A stretch of DNA of 64,000 nucleotides from Pseudomonadota bacterium. GTDB taxonomy: Bacteria; Pseudomonadota; Alphaproteobacteria; Micropepsales; Micropepsaceae. Positions 28,839 through 33,875 of this stretch are shown here, in pieces. Position 1 is the first letter of the stretch. The number at the start of each line of letters is the position of its first letter. Below the pieces are notes generated by a model. That model ran no database searches and was not told where the DNA came from. It saw nothing but the letters and a program-made list of their open reading frames with translations. The DNA lies in assembly GCA_021851325.1 (NCBI GenBank), contig JAJZDZ010000016.1, positions 1 through 64,000 on the forward strand, read 5' to 3'. The position numbers and the translations under genes were made by a program.

Positions 28839-29651
28839 CTATGCCGTGCCGCGCCGGCGTGGCGTCCTTGGGGTGGGCACAAAGGCATGATTGAGCGGGC
28901 CATGGCCGTGGCCAAGGCCGGGAGCGGTGCGGATCGCTCCTTGCAGATAGCTGCGGGCTTGCCCGACCGCCGCTGGTAGCTCAAGGCCCTGGGCGAGGCC
29001 GCAGGCTATGGCCGTGGCATAGGTGCAGCCGGTGCCATGGGTGTGACGGCTGGTGAGGCGCGCGCCCTGGACGCAAAGGCTGCCACCCGGCCATACCAGT
29101 ACGTCCCGCAGTATCCTCTCGTGACTGTGTCCGCCCTTGATGAGAGCGGCTTCGGCGCCAAGCGCGATCAGCTGCCGTGCGGCCGCGACCCGGCCTTTGA
29201 GCCCGCGCGGGTGCTGGCCCAGGAGGGCGCAGGTTTCGGGAAGGTTGGGGGTGACGAGACTGGCCAAAGGAAGCAGCAGGGTTTTGAGGGTGGCGATGGC
29301 GTTCTCAGCCAGCAAGCGCTGCCCGCTGCTCGACACCAGCACCGGGTCCAGCACGATGGGTACGTCAAGCACGGCGATTTCCCTGGCGACGGCGCGAATG
29401 ATGGACGCCGAGCCGAGCATCCCGATCTTGATGGCATCAATGCCGATATCGTCGCGGCAGGCCCGGATCTGGGCGGCAACAAGCCCCGCCGGCATCAGCT
29501 TGAGGGCGCTGAGGCCGGTGGTGTTCTGGGCACTGACCGCGGTGATGGCGGTCATGGTGTAAAGCCCGAAGGCCGCCGCGGTCTTGATGTCCGCCTGGAT
29601 CCCGGCCCCGCCGCCCGAATCCGAGCCGGCGATGACCAGTAGCCGTTTCAT
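28839..29651 (-). CDS. thiD: Hydroxymethylpyrimidine/phosphomethylpyrimidine kinase
   Basis: 270 residues, ribokinase-like fold. N-terminal [19 protein letters not shown] binds the pyrimidine; [14 protein letters not shown] and the C-terminal anion hole and catalytic Asp/Cys region [14 protein letters not shown] are typical of ThiD. It phosphorylates HMP and HMP-P in thiamine synthesis. Its start overlaps the glmM stop by 4 bp, so it is the last gene of the folP-glmM-thiD group. Confidence 0.92.
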
Positions 29652-30994
29652 GCGGCCACGGAGCGGATGGCCGCGCAGATCTCGCGCACCACCTCGCGTA
29701 CGAGTTTCTCATCGTCGCCTTCGGCCATCACCCGGATCACCGGTTCGGTGCCAGATTTGCGCACGAGGATACGACCCTTGCCATTCAGCCGCTCGCCCGC
29801 AGCGGTGATCTGTGATTTGACCCGCTCGTTGTCGAGCGGCGCGGTGCCGTTGAACCGCACGTTCTCGAGGATCTGCGGCAGGGGTTCGAAGAGATGTGCG
29901 GCCTGCGAGGCAGGCTTGCCTTCGTCGGCGATGACGGCGAGCACCTGCAGGGCGGCGACAAGGCCGTCGCCGGTGGTACCAAAATCGCTGAACACGATGT
30001 GCCCGGACTGTTCGCCACCGATATTGTAGCCACCCTCGCGCATCATCTCGATCACGTAGCGGTCGCCGACGGCCGCGCGTCCCAGCTTGAGGTTGAGGCC
30101 GGCGAGATATTTGTCGAGCCCCATGTTTGACATGATGGTTCCCACCACGCCGCCACCCTTAAGATCGCCCCGGCGGCTCCAGGACTTGGCCATCAGCGCC
30201 AGAATCTGGTCGCCGTCGATGATCCGGCCATGTTCATCGCTCATCACCACGCGATCGGCATCACCATCAAGGGCAATCCCGAAATCGGCGCGCATTTCAC
30301 GTACCTTGGCGGCCATGGCGTGGGGCGCGGTCGAGCCACATTCGAAATTGATATTGAAGCCATCGGGGTTCACGCCCATGGGAATGACTTCGGCGCCCAG
30401 TTCCCACAACACGGCGGGGGCGACGCGGTAGGCCGCGCCATTGGCGCAGTCGATGACGATGCGCAGACCCTCAAGGCTGAGGTGACGCGGAAAGCTGCGC
30501 TTGGCGAATTCGATGTAGCGCGCCTGGCTGTCGTCGATCCGTTTGGCGCGGCCGAGCATCGCCGGAAGGACAAGGCCTTCGGCCAGACCATTGTCCATGA
30601 GTGCTTCGATCTGCTGCTCGGTGTCGTCGGAGAGCTTGTTGCCATCGGGTCCGAACAGCTTGATGCCGTTGTCATGATAGGGGTTGTGCGAGGCCGAGAT
30701 CATGACCCCGAGATCGGCGCGCAAGGAGCGCACCAGCATCGCCACCGCCGGTGTGGGCAGGGGGCCGAACTGGAACACGTCCATGCCCACTGCCGTGAAG
30801 CCGGCAACCAGGGCAGGCTCGATCATGTAGCCGGAGAGCCGCGTATCCTTGCCGATCACCACCCGGTGGCGGTATTCGCCCCGGGTGAACAGACGACCGG
30901 CCGCCATGCCGATCTTCATGGCGATTTCCGGCGTCATCGGAAAACTGTTGGCGAGGCCGCGAACCCCGTCGGTACCGAAATATTTGCGCGCCAT
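29648..30994 (-). CDS. glmM: Phosphoglucosamine mutase
   Basis: 448 residues. It converts glucosamine-6-phosphate to glucosamine-1-phosphate for peptidoglycan and LPS precursors. YFGTDGVRG at the N-terminus, the phospho-serine loop [17 protein letters not shown], the metal loop ALDGDADRV and the C-terminal phosphate site [14 protein letters not shown] are all intact. It follows folP by 90 bp on the minus strand, a gene order seen in other alphaproteobacteria and relevant to the unusual folP. Confidence 0.96.
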
Positions 30995-31084: not shown

Positions 31085-31897
31085 TTAGATTGCATTTTTC
31101 GGCGGCTTTTCCCTCAGCCGGGCAAACACCCTGGCGCCATCACGCAGTGCCGCCACATCGTGGGTGCGCAGAAAATCGGCGCCTGAGCTCAGTGCGAACA
31201 GTTCGGCCGCCAGACTTGCCGCGCCCGCGGCCTCGGGTCGGGCATCGACCAGGCGGCGCAGAAAGGATTTGCGGCTGACCGAGATCAGGACGGGCCGGCC
31301 AAACGCCGCTTTGAGCGCCCCGATATGGCGGAGCATGGTGAAGGATGCCTCAGGATCCGTGCCGAGGAACATGCCCATCCCCGGATCCAGGATCAGCCGG
31401 TCGGCCGTGATGCCGGCGGCGAGCAGACGCGAGAGCCGCTGCTCGAAGAAACGGCAGACCCGATCATAGATTTCGCTGGCGGGGACAAACATCGGCCGGG
31501 CCGGGCCCTGGCCCTGGACCGAATGCATGACGACGAGCTGGCACTGGCTTGCGGCCAGTTCAGGATAAAAGCTGGGATCGGCAAAGCCCTGGATGTCGTT
31601 CAGATAGCCCACATTGCGGCTGAGCGCCCAGCGCTGCACAGGGGTGGCAAAGCTGTCGACCGAGAGGCGATGGGCGTCGGCCGCAAAGGCGTCCATCACG
31701 CCCTTGAGGCGGGCGATTTCAAGCTCGGGGGGCACGGCTTGCGCCGCAGGCGCCGAGGAGGCGGCGCCAAGATCAAGCACATCCGCGCCGGCAGCAAAGA
31801 GCGCATGGGCCCGCGCTAGGGCGGCTGCCGGCTCAAGGAAGCGGCCACCATCGGAAAAACTGTCGGCAGTAATGTTGAGAATACCAAAGCTTTGCAT
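31085..31897 (-). CDS. folP: Dihydropteroate synthase, Sul-like variant
   Basis: 270 residues from ATG 31897 (GGAGG 5 bp upstream; the track's 31948 start runs through a terminator). It joins pABA to the pterin pyrophosphate in folate synthesis. Conserved catalytic elements: NITADSFSDGG (8-18), SVDSF (79-83), LNDIQGF (99-105), LDPGMGMF (170-177), SVSRKSF (206-212), THDV. The usual second loop GGESTRPG is replaced by GAASSAPAA (44-52). Blocks such as GYLNDIQGF, VVMHS, RLILDPGMG and SVSRKSFL resemble recalled Sul1/Sul2 sequences rather than ordinary alphaproteobacterial FolP. The enzyme may be naturally sulfonamide-tolerant. Confidence 0.85.
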   Translation of the reverse strand: MQSFGILNITADSFSDGGRFLEPAAALARAHALFAAGADVLDLGAASSAPAAQAVPPELEIARLKGVMDAFAADAHRLSVDSFATPVQRWALSRNVGYLNDIQGFADPSFYPELAASQCQLVVMHSVQGQGPARPMFVPASEIYDRVCRFFEQRLSRLLAAGITADRLILDPGMGMFLGTDPEASFTMLRHIGALKAAFGRPVLISVSRKSFLRRLVDARPEAAGAASLAAELFALSSGADFLRTHDVAALRDGARVFARLREKPPKNAI

Positions 31898-31910: not shown

Positions 31911-31937
31911 GAAAAGGGGAGGCCTGGCCTCCCCTTT
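31911..31937 (-). terminator. Intrinsic terminator between ftsH and folP
   Basis: AAAGGGGAGGC and GCCTCCCCTTT form a perfect 11-bp stem with loop CTG; on the minus strand it is followed by TTTTC. It lies 24 bp after the ftsH stop and ends 13 bp before the folP start, so folP probably needs its own promoter, read-through or antitermination. Confidence 0.8.

Positions 31938-31961: not shown

Positions 31962-33875
<1,914 letters not shown>

Follow-up and report, generated by a model that had tools for sequence, protein, structure and literature searches.

The chromosomal folP of an uncultured environmental alphaproteobacterium of the Micropepsaceae, carried on a 64,000-nucleotide stretch of DNA (hereafter the window), encodes a dihydropteroate synthase (DHPS) that resembles the mobile sulfonamide resistance proteins. 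Two questions follow: whether such an enzyme excludes sulfonamides by nature, and whether its lineage gave rise to the mobile sul genes. The wider issue is how bacteria could be resistant to a wholly synthetic class of drugs before those drugs existed. Chromosomal Sul-like FolP proteins (FolP*) are already known from the Rhodobiaceae and Leptospiraceae, with resistance demonstrated in E. coli (PMC6335563), and soil DHPSs that confer resistance have been described, one of them nearest to an alphaproteobacterial DHPS (PMC6416219).

A Sul-like folP between ftsH and glmM

A sequence-only reading of the locus had described a chromosomal folP in the native ftsH-folP-glmM position, and this was confirmed, with all three genes on the minus strand (Table 1). 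The folP ORF starts with the ATG at 31897, which has a GGAGG site ahead of it. A putative thiD-like gene follows glmM on the downstream side, and putative tilS- and tol-pal-like genes, named by reading their translations, lie further upstream of ftsH. Every sequence block quoted in the earlier reading (GAASSAPAA, GYLNDIQGF, VVMHS, RLILDPGMG, and SVSRKSF) was found in the translation. The resemblance to Sul1 and Sul2 that it had remarked upon goes far beyond chance: the best PDB matches of the window protein are Sul2 (1.7e-79), Sul1 (2.9e-72), and Sul3 (about 1e-65), compared with 4.8e-32 for E. coli DHPS. What the reading missed is the sequence directly after the DPGMG of RLILDPGMG, which is MFLG in the window and FFLS or FFLG in Sul1, Sul2, and Sul3.

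Table 1. Features of the folP locus, in window coordinates
Feature	Position	Strand	Basis
folP, Sul-like dihydropteroate synthase, 270 aa plus stop	31085..31897	minus	ORF, PDB matches, NCBIfam/TIGR01496 scores
ftsH, upstream neighbor, 64 bp from folP	31962..33875	minus	
glmM, downstream neighbor, 90 bp from folP	29648..30994	minus	
Alpha-6/Sul motif DPGMGMFLG, residues 171-179, two-residue insertion at 176-177	31361..31387	minus	Motif per PMC6335563, PMC10328974
Codon ATG, Met176, at the resistance-Phe position (Sul1 Phe178/Sul2 Phe179/Sul3 Phe177)	31370..31372	minus	
Loop 2 GAASSAPAA, in place of GGESTRPG of ordinary DHPS	31742..31768	minus	
Terminator-like hairpin GGGGAGGCC-A-GGCCTCCCC-TTTT, between ftsH and folP	31912..31934	minus	

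The hairpin between ftsH and folP ends just ahead of the folP ribosome site and has equivalents at loci L033, L036, and L058; it may mark the end of the ftsH transcript or tune folP. A 926-aa open frame in genome G375 was considered as an ftsH-folP fusion and rejected, ftsH stopping 71 bp ahead of folP.

The probable working DHPS of the cell

The window protein scores 227 bits against the dihydropteroate synthase model TIGR01496 (cut-off 162.6), and all of the pterin, PPi, and pABA/catalytic residues that were checked are conserved (N8, S13, F14, S48, D81, N100, D171, K210, R244, and H246), Ser48 of loop 2 being invariant in 128 Sul-like proteins. The sequence-only reading had proposed looking for a second, ordinary folP, and none was found by Pterin_bind matches in the 3.53 Mb, 98%-complete window genome. 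Only two such matches were detected, folP itself and one in a 1259-aa frame whose sequence fits MetH, leaving the window gene as the sole folP. Genes for folK (HPPK) and DHFR were found in the same genome. Comparison with L033 gave a folP dN/dS of 0.13 at a dS of 0.69, and comparison with the two nearest species gave 0.13 to 0.15 (dS 0.7 to 1.0); the FolP protein is therefore kept by purifying selection. Faster evolution of folP was considered as a sign of released constraint and set aside as not specific, folP dN exceeding glmM dN also in lineages that keep the Phe discussed below. Judged by its sequence and genomic setting, the window folP very likely supplies the DHPS on which the cell relies.

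An inherited member of the Sul-like clade

In phylogenetic trees constructed without Leptospira, the window protein was found with Sul1-3 and the chromosomal Sul-like FolP proteins in one clade on a long stem, with support of 100/100, apart from ordinary FolP and not inside the alphaproteobacterial part of it. Sul4 was judged by its model alone, on which the window protein scores 104 bits of 600. Against the NCBIfam resistance models, the protein falls below every cut-off, with 284 of 575 bits for Sul2, 256 of 600 for Sul1, and 230 of 475 for Sul3. A sample of 387 genomes from the class separated into two score groups, Sul-like proteins at 231 bits or above (28 genomes, nine family codes) and ordinary proteins at 163 bits or below; in a phylum sample of 399 genomes, the matches outside the class were mobile sul1 and sul2 only.

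Within the window family, a match is present in 89 of 96 genomes, including 59 of the 60 of good quality, and the full-length matches are all Sul-like; the gene is therefore an inherited core gene and not an acquired sul. The ftsH-folP-glmM order is usual in the family, and no ordinary second FolP copy was reported in any of the 96 genomes. A MAG titled Rhizomicrobium (L058), which NCBI assigns to the Micropepsaceae, belongs to this family as well, and its FolP is identical to that of a same-genus genome.

These data also decide between the possible origins of the gene. The idea that this is an ordinary alphaproteobacterial FolP whose motif arose by convergence has nothing in its favor but the common DHPS fold and is refuted by the tree; the fully supported clade on its long stem, together with the gap between the two score groups, makes this reading exceedingly improbable. 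Capture of a mobile sul gene by the chromosome could be read from the 54% identity to Sul2, but the gene occupies the ftsH-glmM position family-wide, no plasmid match of at least 60% identity was present among the best-scoring 5000 records, the GC content of folP by codon position is near that of its neighbors, and the gene is deeply nested with a host-like branching order. Family-wide synteny refutes acquisition, and we give capture practically no credence.

The proposal of the sequence-only reading that the Phe-Gly insertion of Sul enzymes be looked for in the pABA site had a divided outcome. The two-residue alpha-6 insertion is kept in the window protein, and the same columns are gapped in 29 of 32 ordinary FolP proteins; the gating Phe of the Gly-Phe-Phe motif that typifies FolP* is replaced by Met176. 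Because it has Gly-Met-Phe instead of Gly-Phe-Phe, the window gene is filed as a FolP* variant and not as a typical member. An AlphaFold model of the protein (pLDDT 92, with the alpha-6 block least certain at 67) has Sul2, Sul1, and Sul3 as its top PDB matches, the best being Sul2 7s2k and Sul3 8scd with a TM of 0.93.

Gate residue 176 in the window family

A Phe of the alpha-6 helix (residue 178 in Sul1, 179 in Sul2, and 177 in Sul3) clashes with sulfonamides and is essential for pan-sulfonamide resistance: with Gly in its place, the SMX Ki fell 243-fold for Sul1 and 90-fold for Sul3, and E. coli carrying Sul1, Sul2, or Sul3 with this change had compromised resistance, as it did when the Phe was deleted from Sul2 or Sul3 (PMC10328974). 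The same study noted hundreds of Gly-Phe-Phe DHPSs in databases. Numbered on the Sul genes, the resistance Phe is the first residue after DPGMG (the Sul1 start used lacks one Met). The corresponding residue in the window is Met176, which is ungapped in the alignment and is followed by the invariant Phe177 and by Leu178, also kept.

Among 128 distinct Sul-like proteins, the gate residue is F in 97, M in 11, Q in 10, L in 8, A in 1, and Y in 1, and positions 174 and 177 are invariant. All 31 of the non-Phe exceptions lie within the window family, where they make up 31 of 80, and the Sul-like genomes of other families in the class sample have Phe in 22 of 22. A further set of proteins was gathered by a motif pattern favoring F and M; that pattern does not explain the contrast between families, because the class sample came from a whole-protein search. 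At least 10 changes between Phe and non-Phe (12 counting residues) were found on a GlmM tree used as a stand-in for the host tree, and 9 (11 counting residues) on a FolP tree made without the motif, the exact number being unsure as both are quick trees with several weak nodes. That the gate residue was replaced several separate times in the window family is clear nonetheless. The Met codon is unlikely to be an artifact of sequencing or assembly, because the three nearest species also have Met and supported sister groups have other non-Phe states. Loop-3 positions 130 and 132 also differ between the Phe and non-Phe groups, in a comparison that ignores kinship.

Predicted response to sulfonamides

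By sequence and model, the window enzyme is a TIM barrel bearing a Sul-type remodeled alpha-6 helix, on which DHPP would be joined to pABA. It retains the two-residue insertion that narrows the pABA pocket, with Met in place of the gating Phe, and the insertion and the bulky, hydrophobic Met may together still weaken sulfonamide binding relative to ordinary DHPS. Met, being long and flexible, would be expected to obstruct sulfonamides to a degree between that of Gly and that of Phe, giving partial insensitivity. We found no activity or MIC for M, Q, or L variants, and because the changes covered in PMC10328974 are limited to replacement of the Phe by Gly or Trp and its deletion, we infer the effect of Met at the gate. 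The repeated replacement of the gate residue in the window family suggests that the Sul pocket is not maintained there to exclude sulfonamides.

We favor the reading, which we consider probable, that the window gene is a sole housekeeping, vertically inherited FolP* whose Met gate gives partial and not pan-sulfonamide insensitivity, in a family that does not maintain its Sul pocket against these drugs. The sequence-only reading had instead raised natural tolerance, and in its fullest form this would be a wholly resistant Sul-like enzyme in which the insertion and the rest of the pocket keep sulfonamides out with any large side chain at 176. FolP* from Parvibaculum lavamentivorans and Leptospira does make E. 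coli resistant to sulfamethoxazole (PMC6335563), high-level resistance is conferred by SEW5_dhps01, a soil-metagenome DHPS that matches an alphaproteobacterial DHPS most closely (PMC6416219), and the published contribution of the alpha-6 backbone could be enough for full resistance, Phe177 and Leu178 being kept. The window has Met, however, where replacement of Phe by Gly in Sul1-3, or its deletion in Sul2 and Sul3, compromises resistance, and we regard full resistance as unlikely. Sensitivity, with loss of the gate Phe having restored drug binding and resistance having been lost several times, never having been selected, is also on the unlikely side, if slightly less so. It draws on the essential role of the Phe in Sul1-3 (PMC10328974), on the roughly 9-12 gate changes confined to the window family, and on the small or polar residues among the replacements (Q in 10, A in 1), but Met has a much larger side chain than the Gly that was tested, and Leu178 and Phe177, a barrier or pterin contact, are both retained.

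Partial insensitivity thus remains the reading that we prefer, and because the gate residue differs in the window and was swapped many times in its relatives, natural resistance is not to be assumed. More tentatively, and with some doubt, the Sul pocket might have arisen and persisted for a reason unrelated to sulfonamides, the window family serving as the natural experiment in which, with the alpha-6 insertion unchanging, the gate Phe was replaced many times (by M, Q, L, A, and Y) without loss of the enzyme; drug exclusion in Sul1-3 would then be an accident of lineages where the Phe stayed.

Origin of mobile sul1, sul2, and sul3

The earlier suggestion that the gene may belong to the progenitor lineage of the mobile sul genes failed for sul2 and sul3 and was not rejected for sul1. 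AU tests rejected trees that united the window lineage with Sul2 (p = 0.001) or with Sul3 (p = 1.5e-5), and gave p = 0.07 for its union with Sul1, whose branch is long. The scrap of glmM attached to sul2 has 97.5% identity to Parvibaculum; the window genome, at 75%, ranks 85. Because the AU tests reject both clades and the sul2-linked scrap points to Parvibaculum, neither sul2 nor sul3 came, on these comparisons, from the window lineage. The nearest protein to Sul2 is from a Parvibaculum MAG (80.6%), and the nearest to Sul3 is from a Paludibacteraceae MAG (72%).

The FolP of Parvibaculum sp. E19 is 80.6% (amino acid) and 71% (nucleotide) identical to Sul2 (loci L088 4001-4780, L109, and L138 4881-5181), and the N terminus of its GlmM is 97.5% identical to the glmM scrap. 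P. lavamentivorans has 63% nucleotide identity to sul2 (PMC6335563), and Parvibaculum sp. E19 is, by sequence, a closer candidate for the sul2 source. The glmM/Parvibaculum result agrees with PMC6335563 on the origin of sul2 and narrows it. An exclusive pairing of Sul1 with Sul2 was rejected (AU p = 0.0006; L139, L138), which speaks for separate mobilizations and against derivation of sul1 from mobile sul2.

Sul-like FolP proteins that group with Sul3 were also detected in Bacteroidota (Lewinella, Phaeodactylibacter, and a Paludibacteraceae MAG) and in a Treponema MAG (L077, L096, L100, and L087); Lewinella and the Treponema MAG each carry an additional FolP-like gene. At L162 (genome G329) and L106, ftsH and glmM are on one strand and a Sul-like folP is on the other. 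Because other sampled members of the G329 family have ordinary FolP, the gene may have been transferred between alphaproteobacteria.

Comparison with known systems

A Phe described as essential for resistance varies in one family and is constant in all the others sampled, within otherwise native genes that look essential. Naturally occurring enzymes with Phe, Met, Gln, or Leu at the gate would allow the contributions of the insertion and of the Phe to be told apart without engineered mutants, and the gate codon of a Sul-like match from an environmental genome should be read before the match is labeled a resistance gene. In a literature search without most subscription papers, we found no earlier account of FolP* spread over nine alphaproteobacterial families or of natural replacement of the gate Phe, for which priority is not certain.

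The closest known relatives are the chromosomal FolP* of Rhodobiaceae/Parvibaculum and Leptospiraceae (PMC6335563), which share with the window gene the Sul motif and two-residue alpha-6 insertion, the ftsH/glmM neighborhood, the housekeeping position, and the Sul-like clade. The window gene differs from these in belonging to the Micropepsaceae and in having a Met gate where they have Phe, and its protein is 52-55% identical to the Parvibaculum proteins. Sul2 (7s2j/7s2k), 54% identical, has the same fold and the same architecture of loop 2 and alpha-6; in contrast to Sul2, the window gene is chromosomal, scores less than half of the Sul2 model cut-off, has Met176 for Phe179, and is rejected from a joint clade. 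Sul1 and Sul3 (48-51% and 45% identity) likewise have a Sul-like alpha-6, with Phe178 and Phe177 where the window has Met, and the Sul3 clade holds the Bacteroidota and Treponema MAG sequences. With ordinary DHPS, represented by E. coli FolP (1aj0), the window protein shares the catalytic residues, the ftsH-folP-glmM order, and presumably the reaction, but identity is only about 31% (Salmonella FolP), and ordinary DHPS has the GESTRPG loop and no alpha-6 insertion.
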